A stretch of 64,000 nucleotides of DNA from Micromonospora sp. WMMA1363 (GTDB lineage: Bacteria > Actinomycetota > Actinomycetes > Mycobacteriales > Micromonosporaceae). The first letter of the stretch is position 1; every line of letters starts with the position of its first letter. Position numbers and translations under genes: made by a program. This document shows positions 1-8,527 of the stretch, one piece after another. The DNA lies in NCBI RefSeq assembly GCF_030345795.1, contig NZ_JAUALB010000001.1:3464001-3528000 (forward strand). The letters run 5' to 3'. Below the pieces are notes generated by a model that ran no database searches, was not told the DNA's origin, and was given only the letters and a program-made list of their open reading frames with translations.

Positions 1-755
1 CGAATATCGTCGGCGTAGCGGACGAACCGGTGACCGCGCTGCCACAGCTCCCGGTCCAAGTCGTCGAGCATGATGTTCGACAAGATCGGCGAGAGCGGGG
101 AGCCTTGCGGCGTTCCCTCCTCGGTCGCCAGTTTGACCCCGTCGACCATCACCCCGGCTTCCAGGTACCGGCGGATGAGCTTGAGCAGCTTACGGTCGTC
201 AACCTTGCGAGCCACCCGCGCCATCAGCGTGTCGAACTGAACCCGGTCGAAGAACCGGTCCAGATCGACATCGACGACCCAGCGCAGCCCGTCAGCGACC
301 GCTCGCCGCGCGACCCGTACCGCCCGGTGGGCGGACTTGCCGGGACGAAACCCGAAGCTGGCACCGCTGAAATGCGGGTCGAAGATCGGCGTGAGTACCT
401 GCGCGATCGCCTGCTGGATCAACCGGTCCAGCACCGTGGGCACACCCAGATTCCGCGAACCGCCCCCGGGCTTGGGGATCACCACCCGGCGTACCGGCTG
501 CGGCTGGTACGTGCCCGCGTCCAGAGCCGCCCGGACCTGCCCCCAGTGCTGACGTAGCCACCCACGAAGCTCGTGCGTGGCCAGGCCATCCACACCGGGT
601 GCACCCCGATTGGACTCCACACGCTTCAGCGCCCGGCCAAGATTCTGCGGCGTGAGCATCTGCTCCCACAACGACAGCTCCCCGGCCTCGAAGGCGTTCT
701 CCCCAATGCGCGCCGACCGGCCGCTACGCTCCACCGCAGGCTTTGACGGACTCAC
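1..755 (-). CDS. ltrA: Group II intron reverse transcriptase/maturase (C-terminus outside window)
   Basis: Intron-encoded RT that reverse-transcribes and helps splice its host intron. Reading leftward from a GTG at 755, the frame shows the RT0-RT1 region (LWEQMLTPQNLGRALKRVE, then GAPGVDG), RT2-RT3 (IPKPGGGSRNLGVPTVLDR, FGFRPGKSAH), RT4 (VVDVDLDRFFDRV), the EGTPQGSPLSPILSN block and, at the window edge, the catalytic RYADD motif. Maturase (X) and any HNH domain lie beyond the edge. The GTG at 755 has a GAGGG Shine-Dalgarno; the next upstream in-frame stop is at about 839. The frame is intact in the visible part, so the element may still be active. The short ORFs on either strand here are shadows. 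Confidence 0.85.
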   Translation of the reverse strand, partial: MSPSKPAVERSGRSARIGENAFEAGELSLWEQMLTPQNLGRALKRVESNRGAPGVDGLATHELRGWLRQHWGQVRAALDAGTYQPQPVRRVVIPKPGGGSRNLGVPTVLDRLIQQAIAQVLTPIFDPHFSGASFGFRPGKSAHRAVRVARRAVADGLRWVVDVDLDRFFDRVQFDTLMARVARKVDDRKLLKLIRRYLEAGVMVDGVKLATEEGTPQGSPLSPILSNIMLDDLDRELWQRGHRFVRYADDI

Positions 756-1400
756 CGTCGCCGCCCTCGATGAGCCCACGTCCGCGGGATGGCTGCGATC
801 ACCGCGACCGGCACGAGCAACACCAGATCCTTCGCCTCACCTAACGTTCGGCCCTTCCCGACGTGAAACATCGATCCCCGCCGGTACTATGGCCTCTGCT
901 GACTTCTGCCCGGTCCATCCCGCCCTCACGGCCGAGACGGTCACCACCATCGGCGGTGACACCCGGACAGACCTCCCCGGATAAGAACGACCACTTTCCC
1001 CCTACGCCCGCCGCGTCTACGTGACGGCCCTGTCGATGGTGACGGGCTTCGTCGTGCGATGCCGACTCACCCAAACCGTCCCGCCTCACTACGCGGTTCG
1101 TGTTCCTCGGTGCAGGGTTTCGCCTCGGGCTTCCTCCCGACCCCGCCTCACGACGACGCCGTTGCCTCCGGCTCGGGGCAAGCACCACCTCTCTCCCCAG
1201 GGGACTCTCACCCCCAAGCAATCGCCCATGCCGGGCATACATCGACGCCGCACCGCTACGCGGCACGCCACCGAACAGTCCAGCAGCCGGAACCGCCGGA
1301 AACCCAGCCAAACAAACCAATCGATAAACTCGGATTTCATCTCTTTCTTGACGGCAACTGTGACGGCAACGCAGGCCGACACCGACCAACCACGACGCAC
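1..1400 (-). mobile_element. Group II intron, 3' part cut by window edge
   Basis: On the minus strand the intron seems to begin at 1400 with GTGCG, the usual group II 5' end. It runs through about 640 nt of structured RNA before the reverse transcriptase gene. The RNA part has typical domain I-III text, such as the GGGGGTGAGAGTCCCC stem near 1190-1205 and a GTCAGCAGAGGCCATAGTA stretch near 885-905. The RT reads off the left edge, so domains V and VI and the 3' splice site are not visible. The 5' exon ends in a perfect hairpin (1401-1442). Insertion directly after a terminator-like stem is the known habit of bacterial class C introns; the class assignment is inference. Confidence 0.8.
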
Positions 1401-1442
1401 GACAGCGAGCGAGCCACTACGGGATGTTACTCGCTCGCTGTC
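1401..1442 (-). terminator. 13-bp perfect hairpin at the intron insertion point
   Basis: GACAGCGAGCGAG (1401-1413) and CTCGCTCGCTGTC (1430-1442) pair perfectly around a 16-nt loop. The hairpin lies 18 nt after the stop of the 58-aa ORF that closes the RHS cassette, as expected for that transcript's intrinsic terminator. The intron begins at the very next base on the minus strand, so any U-tract has been displaced. Confidence 0.6.
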
Positions 1443-1460: not shown

Positions 1461-1637
1461 CTAATTCCCCAAGCCGCCAGCTACGCCCTCTAGCAGCCAC
1501 GACTTGACCGAATCAATAAGCGCTTTTACTGCCGATTCACCCTCTATCGTGTGGTGCTCCGAAATAACTTGTCCGGTCTCCACCTCAGCCAATTCAATCT
1601 CTGATTGGCCGTCCTCCCACAACACAATCTGACTCAT
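1461..1637 (-). CDS. Small hypothetical protein (58 aa) at the end of the RHS cassette
   Basis: An acidic protein beginning MSQIVLWEDGQSEIELAEVE and ending SWLLEGVAGGLGN; no family recognised. The ATG at 1637 is preferred over the upstream TTG at 1685 because the N-terminus then reads as a soluble beta-rich protein; the Shine-Dalgarno (AAGG) is weak. Local base composition is much lower in GC than the core genome, matching the RHS tip and the neighbouring membrane protein. Its place downstream of a toxin-type RHS protein makes an immunity or cassette-specific function possible, but nothing in the sequence proves it. Confidence 0.5.
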   Translation of the reverse strand: MSQIVLWEDGQSEIELAEVETGQVISEHHTIEGESAVKALIDSVKSWLLEGVAGGLGN

Positions 1638-1751
1638 TCGATGTTCGCCTTGCCTGAGCCCTGGAGGACGGACCACGTGCAACAACTGCTACACACAGTT
1701 GCAGGCCATTACTCAGAAACCCTCGGCGACCAAGACAGTCACGATAACGAT

Positions 1752-2150
1752 TCATTGCGAAACGAGGTGATCTGCGAACCTGATCGCGACGGCCGCAACG
1801 ATTAGCTGTCCGACAAATTCGACGCCAAGATAGACGGACCTGGGTGTGATAAATAAACCAAGACACGCTACGGGCAGCAGGAGCATTAAGCAGAGCATCC
1901 GCAAGTAAATAGTATTGCCAGATACTCGGCCTATCGCCGCCAGCACCGCCAAAATCACCACTGACGGAAGAAAGTAAAAGAAGAATTCTACGCCCAGCAC
2001 AAGACCCACGCCTTCTAACACAGGCGAGCTGAGATAATCCTCCGCGCCGATAAGAACGAGCAGGAGAGTGAACTTTGCCGGGATGAGTAAAGCGGCCACT
2101 GCGGAGGTTCGCCCAAGCCACCAGCCGCCGCCCCTGCGGCGGGGAGTCAC
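1752..2150 (-). CDS. Small integral membrane protein, candidate immunity partner of the RHS protein
   Basis: About 132 aa with roughly four hydrophobic segments (AALLIPAKFTLLLVLIGA, VGLVLGVEFFFYFLPSVVIL, YLRMLCLMLLLPVACLGLFI and a last one around GQLIVAAVAIRFA). No family recognised. A GTG at 2150 overlaps the RHS stop as GTGA, so translation is probably coupled; an in-frame start at 2186 inside the RHS gene is the alternative. GC is low, like the RHS tip. In polymorphic toxin systems the gene right after the toxin tip usually encodes its immunity protein, and membrane immunity proteins tend to pair with membrane-acting or periplasmic toxins. That role is inference from position only. Confidence 0.6.
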   Translation of the reverse strand: MTPRRRGGGWWLGRTSAVAALLIPAKFTLLLVLIGAEDYLSSPVLEGVGLVLGVEFFFYFLPSVVILAVLAAIGRVSGNTIYLRMLCLMLLLPVACLGLFITPRSVYLGVEFVGQLIVAAVAIRFADHLVSQ

Positions 2151-5100
2151 CTCAGCACCCCCGCTCCCGGAAGGGACGTATACCACGACAGTTCCCTATT
2201 TCTCCAAGCAGGCATCGATTTCAACCCCCAGGCACCTCCCGTCGGAGTCATGTCTCGCGCGAGATACCGCGAACTTCCGTCGCTTGCATACTGTACCGCC
2301 TGAAACGATGGATAGTCATCTCCCTCGAGCGCAACGGTCACACCGCGATAGACATGCTTCCCCGAGGACAACAAAGGCGACAATTCCCCACGCGAGAATC
2401 TGATCGTCAGTCGCCCTTCGATCGAACAGCAAGGCAACGCGCTATTCAAACCGCCATAATCGGCCTGCAGCATGCCCTCGGTTACACCATCCCGAGAGGC
2501 CGAGATCTTGATATGATTGGCCCCACCATCCACTATGGCATCCTGCGGCTCGCAATCGCCATCGCGCCAGCACGACATCACCACGGTATAGCTTACCTGG
2601 CCGGTGTCAGTATCCCATGCAAGGGCTATTCGATACGGAAGCCTGGGATCGGTGCCGAAGCCGCGATCGTCGCCGCGAAGCGCACCGAAGGCGGCGGTAT
2701 TGTCTTGAATGAAGAAAGTGGCCGCGATTAGCCCGTTTCCTGGCGCTTTCGGGCCAGGAACAATTGTCCGGACATCCCCTTGTTGTGGAGATCCGAAAAA
2801 TAGGTCACGCACTGACGTCATTCTTGGCCTCTGCCTTGCGGCGACGGTCCACTTTTTTTTATGGACGTTGTAAGTGACCTTCTTGTTCCGCTTTTTCCAG
2901 TAGGTTTCCTCTTCGGCTCCACCGCCGGTGGCCAGCGGAATAAGGCCACTGGGGTCGCTGTAGGTGGTGGGGTTGTTGTGGCCGTAGGCGTATGGGTTCC
3001 ATTGCTGGGGGTCGGTGAGGTCGATGATGGGGTCGACGCTGATGAAGCGGCCGAGGGTGGGGTCGTATTCGCGGGCGCCGAGGTGGGTGAGGCCGGTGGG
3101 GTCTTGGGTGCCGCCGAGGAAGCCTTTGTCCATGTTGGTGGGCCAGGTGCCGGTGGTGGTGCCGCGTTGTTCGCCGTAGGGGAGGGTGCGGCGTGTGGCG
3201 GTGGTGAGGGTGGTGGCGTTGATGGTGAGTTCGGCGGTGCCGTGGTGGTCGCTGGTGATCCAGTGGAGGTTGGTGGCGGTGCGGATGGCGATGGTGCGGC
3301 CGGCGAAGGTGTAGTAGCGGGTGGCTTGCTTAATGCCGCTGTTGGTGTGGCGGATTTCGGTGCCGCCGGGGAGGTAGAGGGTTTTGCCGGTGGGGTCGGT
3401 GCGGATGAGTCGGCTGCCGTCGGCGTCGTAGATGTAGCTGGTGGCGCCGTCGTCGTCGGTGGTGGCGGTGAGTTTGCCTTCGCGGTCCCAGGTGAGGGTT
3501 TGGGTGTCACCCGTGGTGGTGGGTCGGGTTGTGGTGTTGCCGGCGTCGTCGTAGGTGTAGCTGCGGTTCCAGGTGGCGCCGCCGGTGGCGGTCACGTTCG
3601 TGACGGCGTGGGGCCTGGGATCGCCGGCGTTGGGGTAGGTGTAGGTATGCGTGGTGTCCGTGGTGCCGTGGCGGGTTTCGGTGGTGCGGTTGCCGATGTC
3701 GTCGAGGGTCCAGGTGTGCCAGTACGGGTCGGTGGCCCCGTCGATCTGGCTCCACGCGGTGGGCTTGGTGGCGCAGGTGCCGCCCTCCGGGGTCCAGGCT
3801 TCGGTCAGGCGGCGTAGGTGGTCGGTGGTGAAGCATTGGTGGTCGGCGGTGCCGCCGCCGGGGGTGTCGTGGATTTCGGTGACGTTGCCGGCGTTGTCGT
3901 AGGTGTAGGTGTGGTTCGCGGCCTCGGATTTGAGCTCGGGGACGACGTTGGTGCTGGTGAGCCGGCGGGTGGGTTCGTCGATGGTGGCGGTGACGGCGAC
4001 ACGGCGGCCGAATTCGCCAAGTTGGTACTGGGTAAGTTGGTCGAGTTTGTCATAGATGACGTCGTAGACGTAGATCTGAGCTGAGGAGAAGGGGCCGGCG
4101 GGGGCGCCGACGTCGGTGTAGCCGAGAGTCAGGGTTTCCGCGGGTAGGTCAGCGGCGGCGGGCATGGCGACCCGGAAGGGCAGCCCGTTGGCGCGGTAGG
4201 TGTGTTTGGTGGTGTAGGTACAGGTGTTCGGGCTCGCGGCGGCGCACAAGTCTGACTGTGCTGCCGGGAGCACCGTGGAGGTGGATGTGGGTCGACCGTA
4301 GGCGTCGTAGGCGTCGACCTGGGTGGTGTAGGGGTTGCCGCCTGCGTAGCGGATCGCTGCGGTGGGTTTACCCTTGCCGTTGGGCAGCGTGTCGTACACC
4401 CATTCAGCGCGTTTGGCCCCGCTGGTGGTGTCGTCGCGCACGCTGGTTTTGCGGCCGAGTTCGTCGTAGGTGTAGGCGATGGGGGATCGTCCCGTGGCCG
4501 AGCTGGTTTCGAGGTTGCCGGCGGCGTCGTAGGTGCTGGTGGTGGTGCCCTTGTCCGGGTCCACCGCCTGGGTTTGCCGGCCGCGCAGGTCGTAGGTGTA
4601 GGACCAGGCGTTGGCGCCGGTGACGTCGGTGACGGTCTTGAGTTGTCCGAGCAGGGTGTAGGCGTAGCTGGTCTTGTCGAACGTTGCCGGGTCGTCACTG
4701 CCGAGGTCGGTGGGGTTCTTGTACTGGCGCAGGGCGGTGGTGCGGCCGTGGGCGTCGGTGATGGTGGTGGTGGCGGTGCCACCGGTCGGTGGGGTGGTGT
4801 GGACGCGGTCACCGCCGTAGCTGGTGGTGGTGCGCCACTTCTCCACGCCGTTGGCGAGCAGGATCTGCGCGGTCTGCCGTCCGGCGCCGTCGTAGGTGTG
4901 TTGGGTGATCGAGGGGATCTGGCCTTGTGGTGTGGCCAGGCTGGTGTTCACCGCGGTGTTGGTGGAGTCGTAGTAGGGCGCGGACGTCCACGCGGTCGCA
5001 CCGAGGCTGTTGGTCATCGTGTCGGTGACCGTGCGTCCACCGCCGGTGGCCTGGAGTTGGTTCTGTCGCAGCCGCAGGAACCCGTCATACAGGTTCACCG

Positions 5101-8100
5101 ACGTGCGGTACGTCCTCCCGGTCGGCAGGAGAGACTCGGTGGTGACCGCGGTCGGGCCACCGCTCTTACGGACCTGGTAGGCGAACTTCATGCTCGGTGT
5201 TTGGGTGGCCTTGTTCCGGCCGGGCTTCCACGCGTTGGTCAACCGGCCGAGACCGTCGTAGGTGAGTTCGGCGACCGCGCCGTTGGCGTCGGTGACCTTC
5301 GTCGCGGCGCCCCACGCCGGCACCAGCAGGGTCGTGCTCGCGTGCCCCTTCGGGTTGGTCACCACGGTCTGGACGACCTGACCACCGTTCGCGGTCGTGT
5401 GAGCGGTGGTGGTGGTGTGCCCACGCGGGTCGGTAACAGCGGTGATGCGGCCGTTGGTGTCGTAGGCCATGGTGGAGGTGCGGGTATACACCGGTGTGCT
5501 GCCGCTGAATGTCTCCAGTTCCTCGGTGCGGACCACGTTGCCCTTCGTGGGCGCCTGGCCGTGAGAGGAGTCGTTGACGTAGGTGTCGTAGAACGACCGG
5601 GACCGGTTCAGGACGGTGGCCGGGTCGGCGGGGGTCGGGGCGCCGGCACAGAGCCTGGACAGGGTTTCGGTCTGCGACGCCCGGTTGATCATCCAGATGG
5701 CGTCGTTACGGGCATAGCTGGTACGGGTGCACGTCTCGTCACCGGTGACGGCCTCGTCGCCGTGGTCCTCGACTGTGACCGGTAGGCCGTCACTGTTGTA
5801 ACTGGTGACAGTCTTGGCGTATCGGTGTCCGCCGGCGGCGAGGGCGGTGCGGGCGCGGGCGACGTCGGTGTCGACCATCCACGCCTTCGTGGTGATGCCG
5901 TTGCGGCTGCGGGTGGCGGTGGGCCCATTGATCCACGGGTCGTTGCGGGTGGAGGCCACCTCCGCGCCACTCGGCCCGTTCTTCGTGATCGTCTGCAGTT
6001 CGAAGCCCCGCAGGGCTTCGTGGTCCTCGATGGTGCCGCCCCAGGAGTCGGTGACCCACACATCCTTGACACCCGAGCTGGCCTTGTCGCCGTCGAGGCC
6101 GCGTAGGTAGCGGTGCTCGACGGCGGTCTGCTGCCCGGTCGTGTCGCCGTGCCGGACGGTGACCTTGCCGTAGCCGCGCCAGTCCCCCCAGGTGCGGTAC
6201 TTGTCCTTGGTCAACTCGTCGGTGTTGTACGCCCACGCCGGGGTGTCGTAGTCGTACAGGGTGACCTCGGACGGCTGGTCCGTGACCGTGTCATCAAGGT
6301 CGATGCGGGTGACGACGTACTTGTGGAACCAGTCCAACGTCGGCGGTTGCCCGTCCGGGGAGTAGTACGACGGCATGCACCGCTTCGTGTTGGTCGCCGG
6401 GCTGGGCAGCGTCGTGCGGGTGCAGTCCGCACCGGAGTAGGAGACGATGATGTCCCCACCGGTCTCCGTGTGCACCGCCTTGATCCGCCACCGATACAGC
6501 GCCGTACGGTCGTCGTCCGGGCCGTCGACCCGGTTCGGCAACGGATCAGAACCACTGTCGAACGTGATCTCCGGGTCCGACACGACCGCACCGCCGGCGG
6601 TGGTGACATGCCCGGTGCGGGTGATCCCCCGCAGCCACATCGGCACGGTCTCACCGTTACCCGCGTTCAGGAACTCGTGCCGCAACGCCCACGACTCCAC
6701 ATCCGCATACGTGGACGTGCCGCTCCGGGTCTGCGCGGTGACCTTCGCCAGCCGGCGCGCGCTCCAGAACGTCGGCGCGCCCTGCGTCGTACACGGCGCG
6801 GTCTTGCAGTACTGGTCCCACGGGGTGTCATGCCAGTTCGCGGTCACCGGATCCGACGTCCACGCCGCCCCGCTCCAACACGACGTGAGGCACCGCTCGG
6901 CGGTGGTGAACAGCACCCGCAGCGGCGCCGCCTGGCTGTATTCGGCGTTGGCGCGCATGCCGTACTCGACGCGCTTCAGATACCCACCGCGGTCGTAGGT
7001 GGTGCGCTGGTCGGGGTTGAGATCACGGGCGTAGGCGCCGGTCTCCGTGCCGTAGAAGTACGCCATCGAGTTCGCGTTCGGGTCCACGACGTAGTCGAGG
7101 TTCCACCGCCACGCCTGCGCGCAGTGGGCGTCGGCGAACGTGGCGTCGTAACACGGCTCACCCGGGTTGTTTCCGAACACCGGCACCGTCCACGTCGAGT
7201 CCGTGACCGGCTTGCCGCTGCTCCAACCGGGCAGCTTGTGGTAGCCGAAGAAGTACTGGGTGCCGTCGGTGGTGGTGACCTTCCAGTACTCGTTGTCGTT
7301 GTCGCCGTTCCCCCGCGCCGAGTTGGTCAGCCTTTCGACCTTCGTGCCGTCGTCGTTGCGGAGCCGCCACACCGACCCGTCCCGGATCAACTCCCCGGCG
7401 TGGCCGTTGAGTGACAGGGTCGCGTTGTCACTGAACCAGCACAGGTCACCGGTCTTGTGACCAGGATTGTCGTCGTCACACGACTGGTACTTACGTTCGA
7501 TGAACCCCGGCCAGGTATCCCAGCCGTCACCGATCCAGGAACCCTGGTTGTTGGTCAACGCCGTCCGACCGTCGACACTGCCCGACGAGTACGCGAAACT
7601 GACATCCGGCGCCGGTCCGCCGAGGGAGGGCGGCACCCGCAGCGGATACGACCACGAGAAGTCACCCGTCTGCGTGGACACCTGCCACTGGCCTGCCGGC
7701 GAGAGACTCGTCGCGGTGTAGTCACCGTTGTCACCCGACGCCCCGGCCTCGACAGCGAGCACCATCGACGCCCGCGCCCCGACGGCCACGGTGGCCGCCA
7801 CCTCACTGTTCGCGGTGTCGTTGTCCGTCGGCACGGGGGTGCGGGTGCGACACGCCTCCACCTCCGGCGTGCTCAGGGCACACTCCGGCAGCTGCACCAA
7901 CCGCAGCCGTGACGCCCATCCCCCACCATAGGCCCGCGCGAAGCCCGCGTAGTCGACCTGGACCCGCGCCCGCCCCACCCCGGGCTTCCCATCGGCGCGG
8001 GCAGCCGACACCAGCAGTCCCTCCACACCGGCCTTCGCGGTGGCGGCCCGGTCGTGCACCTTCACCTTCACCGCCGACACCGCCGCAGCGGCACCCCTAC

Positions 8101-8527
8101 GCGGCAACACATCATCCGCCGGCGGCACGGCGGACACCGTGACCGGAAGAGTGCCGGCGCGGGCACGGACCGGGCCGGTCAACCCCGCCCGGGTCGTACG
8201 CGCCTTACCAGCCGCCACGGTCGCCGCAGCCACATCAGCGACCGCGGTCCCCGACGGCCACACCACATCCTTCGCCCCCGCCGTCACCCTCGACGCATCG
8301 GCATGATGAGAACGGCCAGGAGTGGGTTTGCCAGCACGCGCCGCCACCCCGGCAGCGTCTTTGGGCTTGGGCGGATCCCACTTCGGCGCCGCCACCGCGT
8401 CCGGCTGCTCACCCAACATCGTCAGCGTCAGCACCGCCGACAAGCCCGCAGCCAACCACACCGACCGCCCCGCCCGCCGACCGAAACCCTGACTCCGGCG
8501 TCGACCCGGGCCTACTGCACTCACCAC
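2147..8527 (-). CDS. Secreted RHS/YD-repeat protein with variable C-terminal tip
   Basis: 2126 aa. GTG start with AGGGGAG Shine-Dalgarno. An N-terminal signal peptide (hydrophobic core SVWLAAGLSAVLTLTML, then AVAAP) sends it out of the cell. Residues about 270-900 contain the region typical of actinobacterial RHS proteins (SYPLRVPPSLGGPAPDVSFA). YD repeats (YTYDLRGRQT, YTYDNAGNVTEI, YTYDDAGN and others) fill about 1000-1750. The RHS core signature GAREYDPTLGRFISVDP and NPYAYGHNNPTTYSDPSGL ends near residue 1864. The last 262 residues (2150-2935) share nothing with the core, have lower GC, carry two Cys-rich spots (SCWRDGDC, LPCCS) and match no toxin family I know. RHS cores form cocoon-like shells around such tips. 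Toxin activity is inferred from architecture. Confidence 0.9.
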   Translation of the reverse strand: MVSAVGPGRRRSQGFGRRAGRSVWLAAGLSAVLTLTMLGEQPDAVAAPKWDPPKPKDAAGVAARAGKPTPGRSHHADASRVTAGAKDVVWPSGTAVADVAAATVAAGKARTTRAGLTGPVRARAGTLPVTVSAVPPADDVLPRRGAAAAVSAVKVKVHDRAATAKAGVEGLLVSAARADGKPGVGRARVQVDYAGFARAYGGGWASRLRLVQLPECALSTPEVEACRTRTPVPTDNDTANSEVAATVAVGARASMVLAVEAGASGDNGDYTATSLSPAGQWQVSTQTGDFSWSYPLRVPPSLGGPAPDVSFAYSSGSVDGRTALTNNQGSWIGDGWDTWPGFIERKYQSCDDDNPGHKTGDLCWFSDNATLSLNGHAGELIRDGSVWRLRNDDGTKVERLTNSARGNGDNDNEYWKVTTTDGTQYFFGYHKLPGWSSGKPVTDSTWTVPVFGNNPGEPCYDATFADAHCAQAWRWNLDYVVDPNANSMAYFYGTETGAYARDLNPDQRTTYDRGGYLKRVEYGMRANAEYSQAAPLRVLFTTAERCLTSCWSGAAWTSDPVTANWHDTPWDQYCKTAPCTTQGAPTFWSARRLAKVTAQTRSGTSTYADVESWALRHEFLNAGNGETVPMWLRGITRTGHVTTAGGAVVSDPEITFDSGSDPLPNRVDGPDDDRTALYRWRIKAVHTETGGDIIVSYSGADCTRTTLPSPATNTKRCMPSYYSPDGQPPTLDWFHKYVVTRIDLDDTVTDQPSEVTLYDYDTPAWAYNTDELTKDKYRTWGDWRGYGKVTVRHGDTTGQQTAVEHRYLRGLDGDKASSGVKDVWVTDSWGGTIEDHEALRGFELQTITKNGPSGAEVASTRNDPWINGPTATRSRNGITTKAWMVDTDVARARTALAAGGHRYAKTVTSYNSDGLPVTVEDHGDEAVTGDETCTRTSYARNDAIWMINRASQTETLSRLCAGAPTPADPATVLNRSRSFYDTYVNDSSHGQAPTKGNVVRTEELETFSGSTPVYTRTSTMAYDTNGRITAVTDPRGHTTTTAHTTANGGQVVQTVVTNPKGHASTTLLVPAWGAATKVTDANGAVAELTYDGLGRLTNAWKPGRNKATQTPSMKFAYQVRKSGGPTAVTTESLLPTGRTYRTSVNLYDGFLRLRQNQLQATGGGRTVTDTMTNSLGATAWTSAPYYDSTNTAVNTSLATPQGQIPSITQHTYDGAGRQTAQILLANGVEKWRTTTSYGGDRVHTTPPTGGTATTTITDAHGRTTALRQYKNPTDLGSDDPATFDKTSYAYTLLGQLKTVTDVTGANAWSYTYDLRGRQTQAVDPDKGTTTSTYDAAGNLETSSATGRSPIAYTYDELGRKTSVRDDTTSGAKRAEWVYDTLPNGKGKPTAAIRYAGGNPYTTQVDAYDAYGRPTSTSTVLPAAQSDLCAAASPNTCTYTTKHTYRANGLPFRVAMPAAADLPAETLTLGYTDVGAPAGPFSSAQIYVYDVIYDKLDQLTQYQLGEFGRRVAVTATIDEPTRRLTSTNVVPELKSEAANHTYTYDNAGNVTEIHDTPGGGTADHQCFTTDHLRRLTEAWTPEGGTCATKPTAWSQIDGATDPYWHTWTLDDIGNRTTETRHGTTDTTHTYTYPNAGDPRPHAVTNVTATGGATWNRSYTYDDAGNTTTRPTTTGDTQTLTWDREGKLTATTDDDGATSYIYDADGSRLIRTDPTGKTLYLPGGTEIRHTNSGIKQATRYYTFAGRTIAIRTATNLHWITSDHHGTAELTINATTLTTATRRTLPYGEQRGTTTGTWPTNMDKGFLGGTQDPTGLTHLGAREYDPTLGRFISVDPIIDLTDPQQWNPYAYGHNNPTTYSDPSGLIPLATGGGAEEETYWKKRNKKVTYNVHKKKWTVAARQRPRMTSVRDLFFGSPQQGDVRTIVPGPKAPGNGLIAATFFIQDNTAAFGALRGDDRGFGTDPRLPYRIALAWDTDTGQVSYTVVMSCWRDGDCEPQDAIVDGGANHIKISASRDGVTEGMLQADYGGLNSALPCCSIEGRLTIRFSRGELSPLLSSGKHVYRGVTVALEGDDYPSFQAVQYASDGSSRYLARDMTPTGGAWGLKSMPAWRNRELSWYTSLPGAGVLR

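Follow-up and report, generated by a model that had tools for sequence, protein, structure and literature searches.

RHS polymorphic toxins carry exchangeable C-terminal tips, as set out in the sections of PMC3482391 drawn on here, and for the UmbC proteins of umbrella toxins 77 toxin families have been reported, of which 4TM tox, Ntox71, a deaminase and a lipid II phosphatase are named in the portion of the main text used here (PMC11062931). The 64-kb stretch of DNA analysed here (the window) contains, in its list of open reading frames (ORFs), an RHS ORF of 2126 aa (2147..8527 (-)). Residues 1-1864 of its product, the core (2936..8527 (-)), match RHS_repeat, SpvB and Rhs_assc_core; the Rhs_assc_core match reaches residue 1862 and a DPSG motif occupies residues 1858-1861. 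With its RHS/YD repeats and RHS-associated core the protein has the build of the RHS polymorphic toxins, and ALF repeats, which would mark an UmbC carrier, find no match in it at E <= 1 in Pfam. The DPSG motif is followed by a tip of 262 aa, then by a gene for a four-span membrane protein and one for a 58-aa protein, and GC is low in each of the three; this is the layout that a sequence-only reading of this DNA had described. The tip, the last 262 residues of the RHS protein (2147..2935 (-)), is lower in GC than the core, as that reading had also held (0.572 vs 0.681, with GC3 of 0.616 vs 0.878); the values are 0.556 and 0.617 for the membrane gene and 0.520 and 0.593 for the 58-aa gene. Positions 1461-2935 as a whole have a GC of 0.560, and of 1251 equally long stretches, taken in 50-nt steps through the 64-kb window, only two reach so low a GC. 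We count the low GC of the module for the toxin-immunity reading. Our best explanation, to which we give a probability of about 0.8, is that the RHS tip and the coupled four-span protein form a putative polymorphic toxin-immunity module whose tip family is unnamed in Pfam and NCBIfam. What the sequence itself shows is the tip swap, a distribution over several carriers, the overlapping genes and the predicted fold, each taken up below.

A paralogous locus in the same genome (L021, G000:C1:5964000-5978000) has an RHS gene that is 97.4% identical in DNA to that of the window over 5532 nt. The match stops at gene nucleotide 5588, just past the DPSG codons; its last 80 nt already show a clustering of single differences. 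The L021 tip consists of PT-HINT (pretoxin HINT) and a GH-E nuclease (HNH nuclease). Judged from the alignment, the two RHS genes represent a direct tip swap, and the suggestion that the module had been exchanged is borne out by this near-identical core that ends at the DPSG motif. Upstream DNA is also duplicated at this locus, at 94% across a stretch of 1159 nt and 82% across one of 684 nt. A comparison of related strains for tip swapping near residue 1864, which the sequence-only reading had proposed, gives the same picture: among 30 near-core RHS loci (60-95% identity; L021 and 29 others, one per genome, a subset of all core matches) the tip body is shared by L120 alone, which is the same place as L028, and the nine of these loci with a core identity of at least 72% all have other tips. 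A core match (E <= 1e-20) is present in 120 of 160 genus genomes and the tip body in five of the 160, own included, with a linker-only match in three further genomes. A variable tip on a conserved core, as in RHS polymorphic toxins, is found here. The linker comprises tip residues 1-41 (2813..2935 (-)) and is common to RHS proteins with other tips. Its residues 3-38 and 3-41 match two other places in the same genome, and linker-like stretches precede other tips in relatives, so that the linker is, from these matches, a possible second exchange point. Another RHS locus of the same genome (L004 9574-12761) has a deaminase-like tip, as read from its motif, after the same linker, and an RHS copy truncated to 406 aa follows the deaminase-like tip gene.

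The tip body extends from tip residue 34 to the stop (2147..2836 (-)) and is delimited as a predicted all-beta, toxin-like domain by an alignment of 26 tips including the window's own (A2), by an AlphaFold model and by a match to the solved structure 3c5p. The claim that the tip matches no known toxin family agrees with our searches, which gave no Pfam or NCBIfam match above a curated cut-off. In Pfam the window tip hit no family at E <= 1, and in NCBIfam, which was searched with the window's tip only, it gave a single row, attributable to chance (E 0.21 and 10.9 bits, against a cut-off of 312); the Pfam search of all 26 aligned tips found no family at E <= 0.01. No catalytic motif was recognised in the tip. 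Six columns are invariant in all 26 tips (G35, I43, G55, R58, G79 and P176, in A2 numbering) and S88 is nearly so; GD.R and YP are motifs of the family. Each of the 12 rows of a narrower alignment (A1) has the cysteines C89 and C95, which are not kept throughout A2. The AlphaFold model of the tip body is all-beta (pLDDT 87.1, pTM 0.86), and there is one clear solved relative of this fold, 3c5p, with likeness over most of the domain. The earlier proposal of a new toxin fold is thus not supported, the fold being common to the tip and to a solved structure.

The tip family is spread over several kinds of carrier. At family level matches occur in 25 of 354 genomes, and in 13 genomes they lie in the tip body; profile A1 matches in 10 of 394 in a class-wide draw. 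The full RHS query recovered three proteins, own included, from a large protein set, and a query with an ALF carrier recovered one more (8000 candidates scored). The tips are found on RHS, ALF-repeat, EspA_EspE, LGFP, GDSL, FN3-like and lectin-like proteins. ALF-repeat carriers are about 1200 aa long, and PF03752 is present in all six that were scanned. Genes that are umbB-like, a call made by eye from the mutual likeness of the three genes, which matched no family, adjoin three ALF carriers (L027, L055 and L056); L055 also has an umbA-like neighbour, a trypsin and tachylectin protein. Three tip proteins come from genomes of the same order (L078-L080), of which L080 has an EspA_EspE N-terminus and L078 and L079 have no Pfam match. 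A further tip ends an RHS protein of the Streptomyces plasmid NZ_CP107895.1 (L094).

A membrane partner was defined as an ORF of 80-240 aa with at least two hydropathy spans and a start no more than 60 nt from the tip stop. Counted on 24 tips (L053 and L069, at contig ends, were left out), the rule is passed by 13. By carrier, these are 13 of the 17 tips that are on RHS, ALF or EspA-like proteins or stand alone, against none of the seven on LGFP, GDSL, FN3-like, lectin and similar carriers (Fisher p 0.00095, for a carrier grouping made after seeing the data); for polymorphic-toxin-like carriers without L078-L080 the count is 10 of 14. As a control, the rule was applied to 123 large genes, tip genes counted in, from the window and from 21 fetched loci; 10 pass it, and eight of these are tip-bearing. 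The RHS loci with other tips, 29 in number and including the near-identical paralogue L021, gave no partner; at 11 of the 29 less than 300 nt lie behind the stop. At the level of sequence association, these counts favour the idea that the four-span protein is a membrane immunity factor. Start and stop overlap (GTGA or like) in the window, at L025, L026, L028 and L055 and at the second L058 tip, and L058 has the pair twice in tandem, as tip-membrane-tip-membrane. The plasmid tip L094, found afterwards, also passes the rule; its membrane ORF (6663-7106, three spans) has an ATG that overlaps the stop (TGATG) or sits 19 nt before it, and is not in the gene table of the plasmid record, itself incomplete. 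The RHS tips L052, L066 and L072 have no membrane partner; L052 is the nearest relative with known surroundings (40%) and yet lacks one. The first L058 RHS tip fails the strict rule: the full membrane gene behind it begins at +184 and is preceded by a short coupled ORF.

These four RHS tips count against the module reading, as do the LGFP, GDSL, FN3-like and lectin proteins that end in the same domain without a membrane gene and the record of 3c5p, which gives no function. Partnerless occurrence on LGFP, GDSL and lectin-like proteins, a closest solved relative of unknown function and the predicted all-beta fold would all suit a non-toxic tip, a beta domain with a binding or structural role at the end of surface proteins, and a membrane protein that anchors or exports this tip. 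However, the partner tracks the tip rather than its carrier, being present with RHS, ALF and EspA-type carriers and missing at the 29 RHS loci with other tips, including the near-identical paralogue with the nuclease tip, and membrane genes also stand alone. We regard a non-toxic role of this kind as improbable.

The proposed immunity protein is a four-span membrane protein of 132 aa (1752..2150 (-)), as indicated by hydropathy, an AlphaFold model and its relatives. The ORF list starts its gene at GTG 2186; GTG 2150, which overlaps the RHS stop (GTGA), is the likelier start and gives the 132 aa. Four spans are seen in the hydropathy profile, and four long helices in the model (pLDDT 80.1, from 6 sequences). 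Relatives with 43-45% identity stand alone in three genus genomes that gave no match in the tip search, and weaker relatives occur in three more family genomes, in one case next to broken pieces of the tip. Membrane-protein relatives in genomes without a tip match are as orphan immunity genes would be, and they could also reflect an independent role. A word-based search of a 5.8-billion protein set with the membrane protein returned its own copy only. Three stand-alone relatives (L086, L087 and L088) differ in their surroundings, although their DNA is 80-85% alike across 438-547 nt, and one genome (G254, L057/L106) has a tandem of broken tip pieces and membrane-protein pieces. Between the own-type and ALF-type membrane proteins there is no detectable homology (hhalign probability 0.3 on the percent scale, E 0.21), and a single immunity family is therefore not demonstrated. 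This non-homology and the lack of a recognised catalytic motif also count against the module reading.

If the tip and the four-span protein are such a module, then, going by what is known of RHS and umbrella toxins, the RHS shell would be exported and the tip released near the DPSG motif. The tip would then kill related bacteria by acting at or inside their cell membrane or on a target in the envelope, and the translationally coupled four-span protein would block it at the membrane and so serve as the immunity factor. We infer action at the membrane or envelope because the partner is multi-span and the nearer relatives of the tip have a cysteine pair, and we give this site of action an even chance. 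The same module could instead deliver a cytosolic enzyme, from which the membrane protein would bar the cytosol, guarding no membrane or envelope target; up to the site of action this coincides with our best explanation. The other tips of the same genome, an HNH nuclease and a deaminase-like tip (the latter from motif reading), and the six columns invariant in 26 tips, R58 among them and S88 nearly so, are what an enzyme might lead one to expect. The predicted all-beta fold, however, matches no known enzyme toxin that we found, and the cysteines C89 and C95, which A1 keeps in every row but A2 does not, would be in keeping with an oxidising compartment. A cytosolic enzyme seems to us rather unlikely.

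The 58-aa ORF (1461..1637 (-)) resembles the C-terminal half of the TriTu immunity protein, with a partial match to PF24689 (E 5.5e-4, 20.2 bits, profile 44-82 of 91); a 74-aa frame of the same ORF gives E 7.8e-5 and 22.9 bits over profile 41-82 of 91, and a full-length match above the curated cut-off of 27 bits was not obtained. TriTu guards against an EF-Tu-modifying toxin. A TriTu match is present in four of 160 genus genomes, own included, and is above the cut-off in one. The likeness to this immunity family would be explained if the actual immunity factor were the 58-aa protein, the membrane protein having nothing to do with the tip, but the likeness concerns the second half of the profile only, below the cut-off, and among the loci examined the relatives of the 58-aa protein lie in TriTu loci only, beside no other tip. 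We consider that reading very improbable, nor is there support for the 58-aa gene acting as a second cognate factor: from its matches the gene is probably what remains of an earlier TriTu-like immunity gene or module. Behind this last gene lies a perfect 13-bp inverted repeat, read from the sequence (1401..1442 (-), arms 1401-1413 and 1430-1442), at which the transcription unit probably ends. A group II intron (Rfam RF02001, RF01998 and RF00029) with a reverse-transcriptase-like ORF is located at positions 1-1400 (-) of the window and L005 8338-10158; it directly adjoins the inverted repeat, which is abutted by GTGCG. Some group II introns insert after terminators, and the GTGCG-repeat junction fits.

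One family with a recurrent membrane partner links RHS tips to umbrella-type and EspA/EspE-type tips. We tentatively suggest, at somewhat less than even odds, an all-beta toxin superfamily that includes 3c5p, attacks the membrane or envelope, is countered by multi-span immunity proteins and is traded among RHS, umbrella-particle and type VII-type actinobacterial delivery proteins. A fold known here from one solved structure would thereby receive a testable role, that of a toxin domain, and since the tip and membrane gene pair is small and clonable the idea of membrane immunity is directly testable.

Compared with TriTu, the 58-aa ORF matches the second half of PF24689, with the first half missing and a score below the cut-off, and the tip shows no Pfam-recognised toxin family. 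The solved relative 3c5p (BAS0735) is a 197-residue chain, a protein of unknown function, and is not listed by the narrower profile A1. As in umbrella toxins, going by the portion of PMC11062931 used here, relatives of the tip end ALF-repeat proteins, some with umbB-like neighbours, but the window carrier, unlike UmbC, is an RHS protein. Because that report gives 77 UmbC toxin families, the tip family, unnamed in Pfam and NCBIfam, may already be listed there as one of them. Unlike the RHS polymorphic toxins, the window has a tip family that is not in Pfam or NCBIfam and a membrane partner without a named family. It shares with them, as described in the sections of PMC3482391 drawn on here, a core ending at a DPxG motif, a variable tip, a small gene directly downstream and a tip swap between paralogues. 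The putative polymorphic toxin module is thus of a known kind, with a tip family that has no name in Pfam or NCBIfam.
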